A stretch of 48,338 nt of DNA from Jiangella anatolica (GTDB lineage Bacteria > Actinomycetota > Actinomycetes > Jiangellales > Jiangellaceae): the NCBI RefSeq assembly GCF_003236295.1, contig NZ_POTW01000050.1, positions 1 to 48,338 of the forward strand. Reading direction: 5' to 3'. The position numbers were made by a program, and so were the translations under genes. The notes under the pieces were generated by a model that worked only from the letters and a program-made list of their open reading frames with translations, was not told the origin of the DNA and did not search any database. Positions 4,075 through 46,107 of the stretch are shown piece after piece. How positions within the stretch are numbered: position 1 is the first letter of the stretch; the number at the start of each line of letters is the position of its first letter.

Positions 4075-5133
4075 TCATGGAGTCGGGGGTGGGGTGGACG
4101 TCGTGCCGATCCGCAGCTGGACCGGCAGGAAGACGTCGGCCGGCCGCCGCCCGGCCAGCAGCTCGGTGACCATGCGGCCGGTGAGCCGGCCCTTCTCGGC
4201 GATCGGCTGCACGACCGTCGTCAGCGCCCGCTCGCCCAGCCAGGGTGTGTCGATGCCGTCGTAGCCGACGACGGTGAGGTCCTCGGGCACGCGCAGCCCC
4301 AGCTCCTCGGCCGCCCGGATGACGCCGACGGCGAGCAGGTCGCTCTGCGCGACGATCGCCGTCGGGCGGACGGGCGCCGAGAGCAGCAGCCGGCCGGCCC
4401 GCTCGCCCTCCTCGACGACGTTGCTGGGCGCCTCGGCGACCGGCACCCGCCCGAAGACGTCCTCGGTGGCGGTGAGCCGGGCCCGGCAGTCGGCGAACCC
4501 GACGACGGCCCGGCGCGCGTCGTCGACCATGCCGCCGCGGCCGTCCAGCCGCAGCGGCAGCGCGGCGACGGCGACCCGGCGATGGCCCAGCGCGGCGATG
4601 TGCCTGGCCAGCTCGGCCGCACCGCCGTAGTCGTCGATCCGCAGCAGCGTGACCTCCGGCCGCTCCGGCCCGTCGACGGCGACCACCGGCACGCCGCGGC
4701 CGATGAACAGGTCCAGCAATGGATCGTCGTCGCGGCCACACGTGGCGAACACGACCACGTCGACCGGCAGCCGGCCGGCCTGCTCCGTCGTCGGGGACCC
4801 GTGCTCGGCGTCGCCGGGGAGCAGCAGCAGCCCGGTGCCGGACGGGCTCAGCGCCTCGGCGATGCCGTCGAGCAGCGCGACGGCGACCGGGTCGCGGAAC
4901 GCGTAGAGCAGCCGCTCACCGACGACCGCTCCGACGATGCCGGAGCGGCCCCGGCGCAGCGACCGGGCCACCGGATCGGGGCCGGCGTAGCCGAGCTCGC
5001 GGGCCGCGGCCAGCACGCGGTCGCGGGTCGCGTCGGCCACCGGCCCGGAGCCGCTGAAGGCCAGCGACGCCGTGGACGGGGACACGCCCGCCCGCGCGGC
5101 CACCGCCGCCAGCGTCGCCCGGTGTTCGCCCAC
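4075..5133 (-). CDS. LacI-family transcriptional regulator
   Basis: DNA-binding repressor, 352 aa. Helix-turn-helix at about residues 8-28 (LAAVAARAGVSPSTASLAFS), hinge helix ARSLRRGRSG, then a periplasmic-binding-protein-like sensor domain with the family-typical 'VVGYDGIDTPWLGERALTTV' near the C-terminus. GTG at 5131-5133 is chosen because GAGGGGAG sits just upstream and the HTH begins at once; the frame is open further but without homology. It is divergent from an MFS transporter gene. The gap holds two tandem palindromes with an AATCGATT core, matching the AANCGNTT core of LacI-family operators. Autoregulation and control of the transporter are therefore likely. The effector is unknown. 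Confidence 0.92.
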   Translation of the reverse strand: MGEHRATLAAVAARAGVSPSTASLAFSGSGPVADATRDRVLAAARELGYAGPDPVARSLRRGRSGIVGAVVGERLLYAFRDPVAVALLDGIAEALSPSGTGLLLLPGDAEHGSPTTEQAGRLPVDVVVFATCGRDDDPLLDLFIGRGVPVVAVDGPERPEVTLLRIDDYGGAAELARHIAALGHRRVAVAALPLRLDGRGGMVDDARRAVVGFADCRARLTATEDVFGRVPVAEAPSNVVEEGERAGRLLLSAPVRPTAIVAQSDLLAVGVIRAAEELGLRVPEDLTVVGYDGIDTPWLGERALTTVVQPIAEKGRLTGRMVTELLAGRRPADVFLPVQLRIGTTSTPPPTP

Positions 5134-5189
5134 GTCAGCTCCCCTCACGAAGTTCGTGCTTGCATCGAGTCTCGCGCCATAGCAGAATA

Positions 5190-5217
5190 TCGAATCGATT
5201 CGATCGAATCGATTCGA
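5190..5217. promoter_or_regulatory. Tandem LacI-type operator
   Basis: Two head-to-tail copies of the 14-bp perfect palindrome TCGAATCGATTCGA (5190-5203 and 5204-5217), which together make a 28-bp perfect palindrome. Each centre is AATCGATT, fitting the AANCGNTT core of LacI-family sites. It lies between the divergent LacI gene (start 5133) and MFS gene (start 5246), the expected place for an operator serving both. Confidence 0.8.
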
Positions 5218-5245
5218 CCGCCAAAATTCACCACTGGGGATCTCC

Positions 5246-6466
5246 GTGAACCACTCCGCTCCGGCCCAGCCCGACCTGGCCAGGGTCCTGCGCGCCCGCA
5301 ACGCCGTCTCCACGGTGTTCGCGCTCAACGGGCTGGCGCTGGCGAGCTGGATGGCGCGCATCCCCGAGGTTCGCGACCAGCTCGGCCTGACCCCCGGCGA
5401 GATCGGCCGGGTGCTGCTGGCGCTCGCGGCGGGGTCGCTCCTCGCGCTGCCCACGTCGGGGTTCGTCGTCGGCAAGATCGGCGCCGCCCGCACGGTGGCC
5501 AGCGGCTCGGTACTGGTGGCGCTCGGCCTCACGCTGGCCGGTGTCGGCGCCGACACAGCCGGGGTCGTCGCGCTCACGGCGGCCGGGCTGGCGCTGTTCG
5601 GCTACGGCTCGGGATCCTGGGACGTCGCGATGAACGTCGAGGGCGCCGCCGTCGAGCGGCTGCTCGGGCGGACCATCATGCCCCGGTTCCACGCCGCGTT
5701 CAGCCTCGGAACGGTGGCCGGGGCCGGCCTCGGCGCCGGCGCCGCGGCCATCGGCGTGCCCATCCTGGCTCAGTTGGCCGCCGTCAGCATCGTCGGGACG
5801 GTCGTCGCCATCGTCGCCACCCGCAGCTTCCTGCCGCACGCCGCCGAGGTCCAGGACGACGGCTCGCCGGTCGAGAGGGTCTCCGTGCTCACCGCCTGGC
5901 GCGAGCCGCGCACGCTGCTCGTCGGCCTGATGGTGATGTGCGCCGCGCTGGTCGAGGGCATCGCCAACGACTGGCTGGCGCTCGGCCTGGTCGACGGCTA
6001 CGACGTCAGCAACGCCGTCGGCGCGGCCGGCTTCGCGATCTTCCTCTCCGCCATGACCGTCGGCCGGCTGGCCGGCACCCACCTGGTCGACCGGTACGGC
6101 CGACTGCCGGTGCTGCGCACCAGCGCGGCCCTGGCCATCGCCGGCGTGCTGCTCGTCGTGTACAGCGGGTCGCTCTGGGTCGCGCTGTTCGGCTCGGTCG
6201 TCTGGGGCCTCGGCGCCGCGCTGGGCTTCCCGCTCGGCATGAGCGCGGGCGCCGACGACCCGCGGCGGGCGGCGGCCCGGGTCAGCGTCGTCGCATCGGT
6301 CGGCTACACCGCGTTCCTCGCCGGCCCGCCCATCCTCGGCTGGCTCGGTGACCACGAGGGCGTGCTGCACGCGCTGGTCGCGGTCGCCGTCGCCGCCATC
6401 GTGCTCGGGCTGGTCTCCCCCGCGGCCCGCGAGCTGCGTCCGGAGCCGGTCGAGGCGCGCGACTAG
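5246..6466 (+). CDS. MFS transporter, YbjJ-like
   Basis: Twelve-helix major facilitator superfamily protein, 406 aa, in the cytoplasmic membrane. The N-terminus (NGLALASWMARIPEVRDQLG) and the segment around GSGSWDVAMNVEGAAVE resemble the E. coli YbjJ group. GTG start at 5246 with GGGGA about 5 bases upstream. It is divergent from a LacI regulator over a tandem operator, so expression is probably induced by the LacI ligand. In actinomycetes such LacI/MFS pairs are often linked to sugars, but YbjJ-group substrates are poorly known. The stop overlaps the convergent VOC gene by 4 bases. Confidence 0.87.
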   Translation: MNHSAPAQPDLARVLRARNAVSTVFALNGLALASWMARIPEVRDQLGLTPGEIGRVLLALAAGSLLALPTSGFVVGKIGAARTVASGSVLVALGLTLAGVGADTAGVVALTAAGLALFGYGSGSWDVAMNVEGAAVERLLGRTIMPRFHAAFSLGTVAGAGLGAGAAAIGVPILAQLAAVSIVGTVVAIVATRSFLPHAAEVQDDGSPVERVSVLTAWREPRTLLVGLMVMCAALVEGIANDWLALGLVDGYDVSNAVGAAGFAIFLSAMTVGRLAGTHLVDRYGRLPVLRTSAALAIAGVLLVVYSGSLWVALFGSVVWGLGAALGFPLGMSAGADDPRRAAARVSVVASVGYTAFLAGPPILGWLGDHEGVLHALVAVAVAAIVLGLVSPAARELRPEPVEARD

Positions 6467-9334: not shown

Positions 9335-10283
9335 CGCCGTCGGCGGTGGCGCGGACCAGGCGGTCGCCGTCGGCCGTGCGGTAGTAGAGGACGGAGCGAC
9401 CGGCGCGGCGGCGCCGCACCAGCTGGGCATCCAGCAGCACCTTGAGATGGCCTCCGACGGAGCCGAGCGCGAACCCCGTCACGGCGACGAGCTGGGTCGT
9501 GCTCATCGGGTCGTCGAGCAGGCTCAGGAGCGTGGCGCGGGCCGGGCCGATCAGCCGGGCCAGGGCGCCGGACGTGGTCGAGCGGCCCTCGGCCAGCAGG
9601 CCGGCGCACGGATAGACGATCGAATAGCGATGCGGACGGCGCCAGCCGACCCAGCCACGGGCGCCGGTGACCGGGATGAACAACAGCTGCCCCTGATGCA
9701 GGTCGCGTGGCGGGTAGTCGTAGGCGTTGATCCGCAGCCGCCCCTCGCCGAGCCAGCGCATGCCCGGCCGCATGTCGTCCAGCGCCGAGGCCCAGCCGCT
9801 GGTGCTCAGCCGCCGGGTCCGGGCGATGGCGTCGGCCTCGAACGCCCGGGCCCGGCGCTGCCAGTCCGGCTCGATCGTCTCGGTCCACACCCAGTCGAGC
9901 ACGGCGGCGATGCGCTCCGGCAGGTCCGGCACGTCCAGGACGGGGTCGTCGCCGTCCAGATCGGCACGCAACGCGGCGGCCGGCGTCGCGCGGATGCGCC
10001 GCAGCTCGTCGTCGAACGTGGGCTCGTCGTCCAGCGGCGGCGCGCAGAGGAAGTCGGCCAGCCAGGTGGGCAGCAGTGCGTCCCGCACGAACGCCCGGCC
10101 CACGGGGTCGGCGGCCATCCGGGCCTGGAACGCCGCCCGCGACTGGGCCGGGCGGATGAGCTGACCCGGGCGGTTGGGCCGCTCCCCCGTCAGGACCCTG
10201 ATGGCCGCGATGGTCTCGGCCAGCGCCGACACGCGGAACCGGCTGCCGGCGAGGACGTCGGCGTCGATCAGCCAGATGCCCAT
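9318..10283 (-). CDS. ArsR-like regulator with N-terminal DUF5937 domain
   Basis: 321 aa. The C-terminus (about residues 235-315) is a winged helix of the ArsR/SmtB kind (LSLLDDPMSTTQLVAVTGFALGSVGGHLKVLLDAQLV, then a RRAGRSVLYYRT wing). No Cys metal-binding motif is visible in the recognition helix. The N-terminal 230 residues match the DUF5937-type sensor region found in actinobacterial regulators. It is divergent from an MFS transporter. A perfect inverted repeat lies directly in front of its ATG and overlaps the ribosome-binding site, so autorepression is probable. The effector is unknown; a drug or small organic molecule exported by the MFS protein is the simplest guess. Confidence 0.85.
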   Translation of the reverse strand: MGIWLIDADVLAGSRFRVSALAETIAAIRVLTGERPNRPGQLIRPAQSRAAFQARMAADPVGRAFVRDALLPTWLADFLCAPPLDDEPTFDDELRRIRATPAAALRADLDGDDPVLDVPDLPERIAAVLDWVWTETIEPDWQRRARAFEADAIARTRRLSTSGWASALDDMRPGMRWLGEGRLRINAYDYPPRDLHQGQLLFIPVTGARGWVGWRRPHRYSIVYPCAGLLAEGRSTTSGALARLIGPARATLLSLLDDPMSTTQLVAVTGFALGSVGGHLKVLLDAQLVRRRRAGRSVLYYRTADGDRLVRATADGVSGSP

Positions 10284-40831: not shown

Positions 40832-41470
40832 TCAGCCGTCTTTGCGGGCCAGCAGGTAGGCGAACGATCGGTCCGGGTGGCTCGGGTTGGGCTGGTCGAG
40901 CCGCGCACGGATCTCGAACCCCGCGGCGGTGAGCAGGCCGACGATGTGGTCGGCCGGCAGCAGCCACCACTCGTACGAGACCGGGTGCCCGCCGTAGCCC
41001 TGCTCCGGGCGCAGGTGCTCGTCGGCGCCGAGGTGGGTGCCGAGCAGCAGGTGACCGCCGCCTGCGAGCGTGCGGTGGAACCCGGCGAAGACGGCGGGTA
41101 GCTGGTCGGGCGGCGTGTGCTGGGTGACGAAGTGCGCCAGCAGCCCGCCCAGCTCACCGTTGCCGGCGTCGAGCGCCGCCATCGAGCCGACGGCGAACCG
41201 CAGCTCGGGATGTGCGGCCCGCGCCAGCTCGACCATCCGCGGCGACAGGTCGATCCCCCGGATGTCGAGCCCTTGACCCGCCAGCTCCGCCGTCAACGCG
41301 CCCGGCCCGCACCCGACGTCGAGGACCGGACCCGGGCTCTCGGCCAGCACGATCTCGGCGAAGGCCCGCAGCATGGCATGGCCGAGCGGCCCCAGGCGGG
41401 AGGCCGGGTAACGCTCGGCGTAGGTGTCGGCGACGGTGTCGTAGGACTCGCGAACGGCGGATTCGGTCAC
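40832..41470 (-). CDS. SAM-dependent methyltransferase
   Basis: 212 aa, class I fold. 'VRESYDTVADTYAERYP' opening, motif I 'VLDVGCGPGALTAELAGQG', motif II 'GIDLSPRMVELARAAHPELRFAVGSMAALD', and 'GFHRTLAGGGHLLLGTHLG'. GTG at 41468-41470 gives the usual N-terminus; the frame is open only 8 codons more. Small-molecule methylation is likely; substrate unknown. A small ORF ends 10 bases upstream and could be co-transcribed. Confidence 0.9.
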   Translation of the reverse strand: MTESAVRESYDTVADTYAERYPASRLGPLGHAMLRAFAEIVLAESPGPVLDVGCGPGALTAELAGQGLDIRGIDLSPRMVELARAAHPELRFAVGSMAALDAGNGELGGLLAHFVTQHTPPDQLPAVFAGFHRTLAGGGHLLLGTHLGADEHLRPEQGYGGHPVSYEWWLLPADHIVGLLTAAGFEIRARLDQPNPSHPDRSFAYLLARKDG

Positions 41471-41480
41471 CCGCCCGACG

Positions 41481-41666
41481 CTAGCCGTCGCCACCGACAG
41501 CCTCGCCCCGCATCAAGGCGGCGATCCCGTCGGACGTCCGCTCCGGCCCGTCGAACCCGGCGGCGAGCAGGAACGCGAACAGCACCGGCCCATCCTCTTG
41601 GACCAGCGCGACCAGATCGGGACGATCGTGCACGCGCCCATCCTCGCCGATGACGCGTCCGCGCAT
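41481..41666 (-). CDS. Small hypothetical ORF upstream of the methyltransferase
   Basis: 61 aa from ATG at 41664-41666 (MRGRVIGEDGRVHDRPDL...), ending 10 bases before the methyltransferase GTG. No family recognised. Its ATG lies at the edge of the perfect 26-bp palindrome. It may be a real short leader gene or a chance frame; an upstream TTG start is also possible. Confidence 0.33.
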   Translation of the reverse strand: MRGRVIGEDGRVHDRPDLVALVQEDGPVLFAFLLAAGFDGPERTSDGIAALMRGEAVGGDG

Positions 41667-41687
41667 CGGCAAGCGCTTGCCGATGCG
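41662..41687. promoter_or_regulatory. Perfect LacI-type palindrome upstream of polysaccharide lyase
   Basis: 26-bp perfect palindrome whose left arm is CGCATCGGCAAGC, so the centre reads AAGCGCTT, matching the AANCGNTT LacI-family core. It sits 57 bp before the lyase GTG and just upstream of TTGACT at 41701-41706, a possible -35. No LacI gene is adjacent. Confidence 0.75.
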
Positions 41688-41744
41688 GCGGTTCGTCTGT
41701 TTGACTCCGCTCTGTCAGGTCTAGACCTCTGCCGAGGAGGACCC

Positions 41745-44291
41745 GTGGAGCTCAGCCGCCGCCGAGTGTTGTCGATCCTGGCCGCCGCGGGGCTGGCCGC
41801 GGTCGTCCATCCGCCGCGGGCGGCGGGCCGGCCCGGCGCCGGCCCCGAAGCCGGTCCCGCCGCCGCCACACCGGGGACCGACCGCCTGCTCGCGAACACC
41901 GTCGCGATCTTCGCCGGCACCCCCGACGTCAACACGCACCCGGCCGTCGCGCCCAAGCTCGCGGCCATCGACCGGACCGCCGCCACCTGGCGCGCCGCCC
42001 GGCAGAACGCGGGACCGAGCGAGCTGTTCGCCGGCCTGCCGCTCGGCGCCAGCGACCCGAACCTCAACGCGTCCTACCAGCACCTCTACGAGATCGCCCT
42101 GGCCACCGCCACTCCCGGCTGCCAACTTCACGGCGACGCCGCCGCCCGGCAGGAGGCACGCGACGGCCTGGCCTGGCTGCACGACCACTACTACGGCGAC
42201 CAGGCCGCCGGCTACTACGGCAACTGGTTCACCTGGGAGATCGGCATCTCCACGCACGTCGGCAAGACCCTCGCCCTCCTGGGCGAGAACGCCCCGGCCG
42301 ACCTGATCACCACCTACGTCGCGTCGATGGACGCCTACCTGCGCAACGGCATCGACGGCGACGTGAACCTGGACTCGCGCTTCCACACCGGCGCCAACCT
42401 CGCCGACATCACCACCAACCGGATGATCCAGGGCGCGCTGCTCGGCGACGAGGCACGCATCCGCAAGGCGATCGAGGACCAGCTCACCGTCTTCGCGACC
42501 ATCGACCCGTACGCCCTCCAGCACGGCAACACCGACGGCTACTACGCGGACGGCTCGTTCATCCAGCACCACTCGGTCGCCTACACCGGCGCGTACGGCC
42601 GGGCGCTGCTCACCCGCGTCGTGCAGACGCTGAAGATCCTGGCCGGGACGGGGTTCGCCGACGGCGCCGCGCTGGTGCCGGTCGTGCAGCGGTGGGTGAC
42701 CGACGGGTTCGCGCCGCTGATCTTCGAGGGCTGGATGATGGAGATCGTCAAGGGGCGGTCGGTCTCGCGCACGTCGACGGGGTACACCGACGTCGCGCAG
42801 GTGGTCGAGGCGATCGTCGACCTCGCCGGGTACTCCGCGGACGCCGAAGCCCTGCGCGGCTACGTGAAGTCCATCCGGTCGACGTCGCGGGCGGCGCTGG
42901 ATCCGGCGACGTTCGTGTCGCCGGTCAGCATCGCGAGCTACGCCGACCTCGTCGCCGACCCGTCGGTCGAGCCGGCGGACCTGAACCCCGCGGAGCGCTG
43001 CGTCGCGTTCAACGCCATGGACAAGACCGTGCACCGCCGCCCCGGCTACGCGTTCGCGCTGGCCCGCAGCTCGGACCGGATCAGCAAGTACGAGTACATG
43101 AGCGGCGAGAACCTCATGCCGTGGTTCCAGGGCGACGGCGCGCACTACCTGTACCTGTCCGGCCAGGACCAGACCCAGGCGTTCGGCGTCGACTACTTCA
43201 CGACGGTGTCGCCGTACGGCCTGGCCGGGGTGACGGCGCCGGTCGAGGAGCGCCGGACGATCCCGCAGCTCTACGGCACGCCGTACTACGACAACCCCGG
43301 CCACCCGCTGAACTTCACCTCGTCGTCGACATCGCAGAACACCTACGTGTACTTCCCGCGCGGCACGAACGGCCACTCCGGCGGCGCGACGCTCGGCGCG
43401 TACGGCGCCGCGTCGCTGGTGCTCTCCAGCGACGTCGCGTGGGCGGACAAGCAGCAGGGCATCCTGCCGGAGGGCTTCGTCGTCTACCGCAACGCGACCG
43501 CGACGAAGTCGTGGTTCCTGTTCGACGACGAGATCGTGGTGCTCGCCGCGGGGATCGGCGACGACGCGGGCCGAGCCGTCACGACGACGGTCGACGCGCG
43601 GATCGCTGCGGCCGCCGACCCGGTGACGGTGACCGGCGCGCTGCGCGGCGGCGGCACGTGGACCGGACCCGGCACCGCAGACCTCGCCTGGCTGCGGTGG
43701 GCCGACCCGGCGCAGGACGCGGCCGTCGGCTACGTGTTCCTGTCCGCGCAGCCGGTCCGGGTCGGCCTGGACACCGTCACCCGCAGCCGCCGCGTCGTCC
43801 GCACCGCGAACCCGGACACCGCGGTGACGAAACGCGTCCTCGGCGTGACGATCGACCACCCGGCCGGCGCCGCGCCGTCGTCGCACGCGTACGCGCTGGT
43901 CCCGCACGCGACGGAGGCGGCGCTGACGGCGTACGCGGCCGGCCCGCTGGAGGTGCTCGCGAACACGACCGACCTCCAGGCCGTCTGTCACACCGGCCTC
44001 CGGCTGACCGGCGTCAACACGTTCACCGCCGGCCGCCACGACGCCGGCGGGCTGAGCGTCGACGGACCCGCGTCGGTGCTGATGCGCAGCAGAAGCCGGC
44101 TCACCACCGTCGCCGTCTCGGACCCGACGATGGACCGCGACGTCGTCGAGGTCCTCGTGACCGGCCGAACGCTGACCCGCGTGGCCGGCGACCGCGACGT
44201 CACCGTCCGGCAGACCGCCGACGGCACGCTGCTGACCGTCGTGACCCGGCAGGCCTACGGCCGATCCCGCACCGTGACGCTGCGCGGCTGA
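41745..44291 (+). CDS. Polysaccharide lyase family 8 (hyaluronate/chondroitin/xanthan lyase type)
   Basis: 848 aa, the usual size. Signal of the Tat kind 'SRRRVLSILAAAGLAAVV'. N-terminal alpha/alpha toroid (about 45-385), then beta-sandwich domains. Catalytic triad by pattern: N218 (TGAN), H275 and Y284 in QHHSVAYTGAYG, spaced 9 apart as in hyaluronate lyase. The aromatic patch is NWFTWEIG at 160-167. Cleaves uronic-acid-containing polysaccharides by beta-elimination. Which polymer (hyaluronan, chondroitin, xanthan) cannot be told. GTG at 41745 with GAGGAGG upstream. The LacI-type palindrome suggests sugar-induced control. Confidence 0.95.
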   Translation: MELSRRRVLSILAAAGLAAVVHPPRAAGRPGAGPEAGPAAATPGTDRLLANTVAIFAGTPDVNTHPAVAPKLAAIDRTAATWRAARQNAGPSELFAGLPLGASDPNLNASYQHLYEIALATATPGCQLHGDAAARQEARDGLAWLHDHYYGDQAAGYYGNWFTWEIGISTHVGKTLALLGENAPADLITTYVASMDAYLRNGIDGDVNLDSRFHTGANLADITTNRMIQGALLGDEARIRKAIEDQLTVFATIDPYALQHGNTDGYYADGSFIQHHSVAYTGAYGRALLTRVVQTLKILAGTGFADGAALVPVVQRWVTDGFAPLIFEGWMMEIVKGRSVSRTSTGYTDVAQVVEAIVDLAGYSADAEALRGYVKSIRSTSRAALDPATFVSPVSIASYADLVADPSVEPADLNPAERCVAFNAMDKTVHRRPGYAFALARSSDRISKYEYMSGENLMPWFQGDGAHYLYLSGQDQTQAFGVDYFTTVSPYGLAGVTAPVEERRTIPQLYGTPYYDNPGHPLNFTSSSTSQNTYVYFPRGTNGHSGGATLGAYGAASLVLSSDVAWADKQQGILPEGFVVYRNATATKSWFLFDDEIVVLAAGIGDDAGRAVTTTVDARIAAAADPVTVTGALRGGGTWTGPGTADLAWLRWADPAQDAAVGYVFLSAQPVRVGLDTVTRSRRVVRTANPDTAVTKRVLGVTIDHPAGAAPSSHAYALVPHATEAALTAYAAGPLEVLANTTDLQAVCHTGLRLTGVNTFTAGRHDAGGLSVDGPASVLMRSRSRLTTVAVSDPTMDRDVVEVLVTGRTLTRVAGDRDVTVRQTADGTLLTVVTRQAYGRSRTVTLRG

Positions 44292-45201: not shown

Positions 45202-46107
45202 CTACCCGCGGCGCCGCAGCAGGACGCCCGCGAGAGCGACATCGGCGGGGTCCAGCGCGGCCTTGCCGTCCTCGATCTCCCACAGCGCGTTCTGCAGGAC
45301 CCGGCCCAGCGTCCAGCCGGCGGCCCGCGGCCGGTCGACACCGACCAGCTCGGTGAGCAGGTCGAACCGGCGCAGCACGGTCCGCTCCACCCCGTCGGCT
45401 ATGGCGGCGGGCCAGCGCGAGTTCAGCGCCGGCCAGAGGTCGAAGCCGGGGTCGCCGGCCAGCGGCACCGGGTCGATCGCCAGCCACGGCTCCCGCTCTC
45501 CCGCCAGCACGTTCTCGTCGTGCAGGTCCCAGTGCAGCAGCCGGTCGCCGGACTCGGGCAGCAGGTCCGCGACGGCGGCCGCGCAGGTCTGGACCAGCCG
45601 CCGCTCGGCGGGGTCGGCCAGCGACGGCGCCGCGGCGGGGGCGTCGGCCACCATCGCGGCGGCGACCTCGGACAGCCGCGGCAGGCCGTCCGGCGCCGGC
45701 ACCGCGACCAGCCGGGCCAGCAGCTCGCCCAGCACGGTCATAGCGGCGTCGTCGGACGGGAGCGACGACAGCGGCCGGTCACCGTCGAGCCGCTCCAGCA
45801 GCATCGCGCCACCGTCGTGGGCGAGCAGCCGCACGACGCCGTCGCCGGACCACGTCCGCAGCCCGATGACGGCGGCCGCGGACTCCTCGTTGTCCGGCTG
45901 CAGCCGCAGGACGGCCGGCGTGCCGTCGGCCCTGACCACCGGCTGGACCAGCGCCGCCATCCCGTTGCCGGCCGGGCCGTCCGGGCGCAGCTCCCAGGTC
46001 TGCAGAACGTGCGCCAGCAGCCGGGGCAGCTCGGCCAGCCAGGCGCGGCCGGCGTCGTCGCGCCCGTACGAGGTGACCAGGGCGGCCGGCGCCGCGTCGG
46101 GACTCAC
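45202..46107 (-). CDS. Aminoglycoside phosphotransferase-family kinase, APH(6)-like
   Basis: 301 aa. Resembles the streptomycin 6-kinase group: 'VLRLQPDNEESAAAVIGLRTWSGDGVVRLLAHDGGAMLLERLDGDRPLSSL' in the N-lobe, catalytic loop 'RLLHWDLHDENVL' (HxDxxxxN), then 'WLAIDPVPLAGDPGFDLWPAL', the metal-binding DPxxxxGDP. All catalytic residues are present. True streptomycin resistance or a housekeeping small-molecule kinase both remain possible. GTG start overlaps the phosphodiesterase stop by 4 bases. Confidence 0.9.
   Translation of the reverse strand: MSPDAAPAALVTSYGRDDAGRAWLAELPRLLAHVLQTWELRPDGPAGNGMAALVQPVVRADGTPAVLRLQPDNEESAAAVIGLRTWSGDGVVRLLAHDGGAMLLERLDGDRPLSSLPSDDAAMTVLGELLARLVAVPAPDGLPRLSEVAAAMVADAPAAAPSLADPAERRLVQTCAAAVADLLPESGDRLLHWDLHDENVLAGEREPWLAIDPVPLAGDPGFDLWPALNSRWPAAIADGVERTVLRRFDLLTELVGVDRPRAAGWTLGRVLQNALWEIEDGKAALDPADVALAGVLLRRRG

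Follow-up and report, generated by a model that had tools for sequence, protein, structure and literature searches.

A 14-bp LacI-type operator core, conserved at the promoter of a PL8 polysaccharide lyase gene in all 12 Jiangella genomes compared, probably places the lyase under the control of a LacI-family regulator that is encoded in an inositol-type locus on another contig; we put the probability of this reading at roughly 0.6. The analysis started from a 48,338-base contig of Jiangella anatolica, referred to here as the window, which belongs to a genome of 7.0 Mb in 256 contigs. An earlier note on the window had described a 26-bp LacI-type operator before the lyase and had predicted that a distant regulator reads it. 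The LacI-type site and its link to the lyase were borne out, and a remote regulator is likely, but the conserved unit proved to be 14 bp rather than 26 bp, and the proposed regulon was not recovered.

The lyase gene (41745 to 44291, plus strand, GTG start) encodes a protein of 848 amino acids in which the N-terminal, super-sandwich, and C-terminal domains of PL8 enzymes are all present above the Pfam cut-offs (PF08124, PF02278, and PF02884). In this respect it resembles the xanthan and hyaluronate lyases of the family. Among solved structures, xanthan lyases match best (1j0m; 7.6e-72), followed by hyaluronate and chondroitin AC lyases; however, the protein scores far below the NCBIfam cut-offs for both HylB and chondroitinase AC. 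Its N terminus, MELSRRRVLS, was read by eye as a twin-arginine-like signal. No other enzyme for polymer use was recognised among the 20 window proteins that were scanned. A gene resembling aminoglycoside/hydroxyurea kinases (PF04655) lies downstream of the lyase at 45202 to 46107. When the promoter region was compared to plasmids, a single Nonomuraea record was hit, and the match covered only the coding part of the lyase.

The palindrome before this gene, CGCATCGGCAAGCGCTTGCCGATGCG (41662 to 41687), is a perfect even palindrome of 26 bp with a CG centre, as the earlier note had it, and its end is 57 bp from the GTG start. When the window was shuffled 30 times with a first-order Markov model, the longest palindrome was 24 bp in one shuffle and 16 to 22 bp in the other 29. 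The length of the palindrome is mildly unusual within the window, yet it is weak evidence by itself because, by our own rough estimate, 7 Mb of DNA with this composition should contain one or two palindromes of 26 bp. A scan of the whole source genome with up to 3 mismatches found no second copy of the 26-mer. Formally, this is the outcome that the earlier note had counted against its reading; the lack of copies does not refute an operator, however, because the core of the palindrome is conserved across species.

What the species share is the inner 14 bp, GGCAAGCGCTTGCC (41668 to 41681), a core of LacI-family type with a CG centre; all 12 Jiangella genomes, the source genome included, carry it before the lyase. 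Eight of these cores are exact, two have one mismatch (G002 and G005), and those of G003 and G006, both GGAAAGCCCTTGCC, have two. The CG centre is accordingly kept in 10 of the 12 promoters and absent from G003 and G006. Mean pairwise identity among the 12 promoters was 0.94 over the 14 bp of the core, compared to 0.30 over the 25 columns upstream and 0.44 over the nine columns downstream. The outer arms are private to the source genome; the perfect palindrome extends over 26 bp there and over 0 to 20 bp in the 11 other Jiangella. It is this conservation across species, and not length, that we regard as the decisive evidence for the predicted site. The core lies at -77 to -64 relative to the start codon, inside the range of about -140 to -30 that is typical of LacI-family sites. 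Form, place, and conservation together support the view that 41668 to 41681 is a LacI-type operator at which binding is predicted, in line with what the earlier note had proposed for the longer palindrome.

The position of the core relative to the lyase promoter is nearly fixed. From sequence and alignment we infer that TTGACT (41701 to 41706, plus strand) is a candidate -35 box and that GAGGAGG (41734 to 41740, plus strand) is the likely ribosome-binding site of the lyase; with TTGACT taken as the -35 box, only about 10 bases would remain for the leader. The distance from the operator centre to TTGACT is 25 to 26 bp in all 12 Jiangella. Among 393 genomes of the class, the arrangement AAGCGCTTGCC-N16..21-TTGACT was present in nine, eight Jiangella and one other member of the same family. 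TTGACT is part of a conserved block, TCTG(T/C)TTGACTCC, and many Streptomyces and Kribbella PL8 promoters contain a block like that at 41697 to 41708, similarly spaced from the start codon. Such a block is present also where the operator is absent, but not in all of the 29 PL8 promoters that were compared.

Could the palindrome be a chance or structural feature, such as a hairpin or terminator, that no regulator reads? Its single copy in the genome fits that idea, as do the shuffles and the rough estimate that palindromes of 26 bp are not very rare at the scale of 7 Mb of high-GC DNA. A core identity of 0.94 in 12 genomes and the near-fixed spacing to TTGACT speak against it, as does the lack of a T-run after the palindrome, and we consider this explanation extremely improbable.

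The operator is also very unlikely to act on the divergent minus-strand genes instead of the lyase. These are a small open frame of about 77 codons (41481 to 41715), which has no Pfam match, and a methyltransferase gene (40832 to 41470). In the window, possible TTG/ATG starts of the small frame fall inside the palindrome, and G009 and G010 have relatives of the frame (about 50% identity) that also overlap the operator. However, in G005 some 1.8 kb separates the relative from the operator, and the methyltransferase gene is about 0.2 to 2.1 kb away in the nine other Jiangella regions in which it was found. The operator goes with the lyase: its spacing to the lyase box stays at 25 to 26 bp while the divergent genes lie at varied distances. 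One genome, G008, carries a second exact operator site on contig C10 (locus L107, near 9700 to 9850). The upstream part and the N-terminal codons that follow are 89% identical in DNA to those of the lyase, but the rest of the region gave no lyase match. This second copy of operator, promoter, and first codons is a broken duplicate of the lyase.

No gene next to the lyase offers itself as the regulator. A profile built from 52 LacI proteins of the source genome detected no LacI gene beside the lyase in 92 lyase loci, in agreement with what the earlier note had reported for the window. These loci comprise 80 named loci, with flanks of up to 4 kb that in some cases are cut by contig ends, together with 12 Jiangella regions spanning 13 to 20 kb; one of these regions, L107, holds only the broken copy, and six of the named loci come from species that are also among the 12. 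The source genome has 53 LacI matches, only one of which is on the window contig. That gene lies at a distance from the lyase, inside an open reading frame on the minus strand (4075 to 5577; LacI helix-turn-helix, 4984 to 5115), and, as had been noted, the operator near it is different. A 28-bp double AATCGATT palindrome, TCGAATCGATTCGATCGAATCGATTCGA, is located at 5190 to 5217 between this frame and an MFS transporter gene (5246 to 6466, plus strand) and is likely the operator pair of the local LacI protein.

The neighbourhoods of all 53 LacI genes were compared to the lyase core, over 10 kb for the locus on contig C7 and about 2 to 3 kb for most others. Only the C7 locus has a site with at most 1 mismatch; the best site had 2 mismatches in one further neighbourhood and 3 to 5 in the other 51. 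Of the LacI genes in the source genome, 52 were examined for autoregulatory sites, and none has one resembling the lyase core in its promoter; the 53rd, on contig C36, was covered by the scan for the core. It counts against a pairing with the C7 gene that LacI paralogs often have AAGCGCTT in common.

The C7 LacI gene (L049, 3423 to 4466) is followed by the site GGCAAGCGCTTTCC (5015 to 5028; GGAAAGCGCTTGCC on the opposite strand) and then by a gene for a Gfo/Idh/MocA oxidoreductase, whose ATG is 13 bp beyond the site. There is no such site before the C7 LacI gene itself. The C7 site is identical to the lyase core in 13 of 14 letters and differs in one; of the two, only the lyase site is symmetric. 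Orthologs of the C7 LacI (86 to 100%) and of the oxidoreductase (85 to 100%) are present together with GGAAAGCGCTTGCC in 12 of 12 Jiangella genomes. The LacI gene is intact in G003 and G006 although the lyase site in these genomes has no CG centre. The inositol-type character of the locus is tentative: an IolC kinase scores above its NCBIfam cut-off (363 versus 300), an IolG-like dehydrogenase scores below its own (301 versus 355), and another dehydrogenase is likewise below. The neighbours also include a gene for a xylose-isomerase-like barrel protein, and in G003 the oxidoreductase is followed by a DUF993 protein. The earlier suggestion of a distant LacI regulator has, in the C7 LacI protein, a specific candidate that would control the lyase through the core operator.

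The sites found with a relaxed motif are consistent with this pairing. GGMAAGCGCTTKCC matched 28 sites in the 12 Jiangella genomes, compared to 2 for a reversed control pattern. By our own reading of the neighbourhoods, 12 of the 28 are at the LacI/oxidoreductase locus, eight are at the lyase, and one is at the broken lyase copy. Three more precede xylose-isomerase-like barrel genes (G003, G006, and G007; two of them examined with Pfam), two precede ThuA/sorbosone-dehydrogenase genes (G002 and G004), one precedes an open reading frame of 1572 amino acids (G003), and one lies between convergent genes (G005). Against the pairing, the lyase core with one mismatch allowed is not enriched in the genus, with 2 to 5 sites per genome versus 5 to 12 for a control pattern. 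In the source genome GGMAAGCGCTTKCC has two sites, one at the lyase and one at the C7 LacI/oxidoreductase locus, and no other gene for uronate-polymer use was recognised at either. The predicted regulon in this genome thus comprises two sites and is not the uronate-polymer regulon that copies of the palindrome had been expected to define. Loci with the 14-bp motif before barrel or ThuA/sorbosone dehydrogenase genes were seen in L052, L056, L057, L061, and L246, and in some Jiangella this placement suggests a regulon for oxidised sugars.

An alternative is that another of the 53 LacI-family proteins binds the operator, with the lyase as its only or main remote target. Several of these proteins have ATVSR-like recognition helices that might read AAGCGCTT, and the difference in symmetry between the lyase and C7 sites is in keeping with two different proteins. 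However, no other LacI neighbourhood in the source genome has a site with at most 1 mismatch, and more than three quarters of the local LacI regulators in the set covered by PMC4052901 are autoregulated. We consider this alternative rather unlikely, and the C7 LacI protein remains the preferred candidate.

Genomes outside the genus bear on this choice in both directions. The AAGCGCTT operator was found in 7 of the 80 named PL8 loci, five of them Jiangella, and in none of the rest, in a scan that required near-symmetric sites and may have missed asymmetric ones; the lyase promoters of L121, L134, and L141 have variant forms that it did not detect, the form for L121 being read from a genome of the same species. 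Four non-Jiangella genomes with a lyase operator of AAGCGCTT or AAACGCTT type (G012 to G015) were searched further, and each contains a LacI relative (61 to 81%) with GG(C/T)AAGCGCTT(T/G)CC beside it; in G015 the LacI gene is truncated by the contig end and the site precedes a barrel gene. In Actinopolymorpha alba (G026) the LacI site is present, and the near-symmetric scan found no lyase operator. Among Kribbella, three of the four lyase promoters compared have a weaker asymmetric form (GGCAAGCGGTTGCT and similar) at the same spacing. No such site was found in the flanks searched around the closest LacI relatives (54 to 56%) in nine Kribbella genomes, and the Kribbella form is hardly above its control in these genomes (23 matches versus 16). 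The Kribbella data, which do not pair the lyase site with a C7-type LacI, are neutral or against the pairing and in that respect would suit regulation by another LacI protein. In Phytoactinopolyspora, the lyase operator is placed 6 bp before TTGAAT and overlaps that box, an arrangement that favours repression there.

A second conserved palindromic box, which the earlier note had overlooked, lies over the putative -10 region of the lyase promoter. This box, TCAGGTCTAGACCTCT (41715 to 41730), resembles the dre operators of DasR, a regulator of GntR/HutC type. The dre site of the Streptomyces coelicolor chitinase gene SCO7225 is tcaggtctagacctgt, with which it shares 15 of 16 letters (PMC4398421). 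Its core, GGTCTAGACC, is retained exactly in 9 of the 12 Jiangella lyase promoters and with one mismatch in another; two promoters have lost it. Matches to a strict version of the box numbered 13 across the 12 genomes (control, 0), and seven of these are at the lyase; of the six others, the two that were looked at are on contigs C14 and C122 of the source genome. In that genome GGTCTAGACC occurs four times, and two of the three occurrences away from the lyase adjoin genes for GntR regulators with a UTRA domain. In contrast to Streptomyces, where DasR is known, none of the 11 UTRA-domain proteins of the source genome was identified as DasR.

These observations allow a working model. The core at 41668 to 41681 would be the operator through which a LacI-family regulator acts on the PL8 lyase, and the C7 LacI protein would bind both this site and the C7 site, with an inositol-like or oxidised sugar as its putative ligand. 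The same protein may activate the lyase from upstream of the -35 box and repress the C7 oxidoreductase gene, a combination that is possible because the lyase site is upstream of the putative -35 box and the C7 site is near a start codon. Through the second box, over the putative -10 region, the lyase may respond to a further signal, which could be an amino sugar. In its fullest form the model, which we offer only tentatively, is that an inositol-type LacI captured a secreted PL8 lyase as a remote target in Jiangellaceae. This LacI would activate or gate the lyase while bound at a near-constant distance ahead of the -35 box, a DasR-like repressor would occupy the -10 region, and as a result the enzyme would be made only when a cyclitol or oxidised-sugar signal and an amino-sugar signal agree. 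The comparison suggests that lyase production in Jiangella answers two signals, and it links an isolated polysaccharide-lyase gene to a remote regulator in a way that can be tested. It also illustrates that a palindrome present in one copy may be assigned by comparison across species rather than by counting copies in one genome.

The literature that we found contains no report with these site letters. No LacI-lyase pairing of this kind was found in reports on Jiangella polysaccharide lyases, and the portions available to us of reports that join LacI proteins with hyaluronate lyase (Streptomyces) or xanthan lyase describe no such remote pairing; in the xanthan cluster of Paenarthrobacter, the LacI genes are inside the cluster. 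Most sites of the LacI family are even palindromes centred on CG, and most fall between 140 and 30 bp ahead of the start codon (PMC4052901). The lyase site is like them in all three features and differs from that set in that its proposed regulator gene is remote, rather than beside the lyase.

Two inositol-linked regulators offer the closest parallels. The high-affinity footprint of IolQ (DegA), the inositol repressor of Bacillus subtilis, holds GAAAGCGCTTGC, the same 12 bp that form the middle of the C7 site in Jiangella (PMC5504672). The likeness is one of site letters, and both IolQ and the C7 LacI are LacI-family proteins with a link to inositol, which for the C7 LacI is putative. Unlike the lyase case, IolQ represses a nearby scyllo-inositol dehydrogenase gene (iolX) from sites downstream of the promoter, and the targets described in the available part of that report do not include a polysaccharide lyase (PMC5504672). 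IpsA, an inositol-responsive LacI-type regulator of Corynebacterium, activates genes from sites ahead of the -35 box and represses them from sites that overlap the -35 or -10 box (PMC3899939). The IpsA-activated genes and the Jiangella lyase are alike in site position, upstream of a -35 box that is putative for the lyase, and differ in function, as the targets of IpsA are inositol synthesis and cell-wall genes (PMC3899939). The lyase operator is of an ordinary gene-control type with an unexpected candidate partner.
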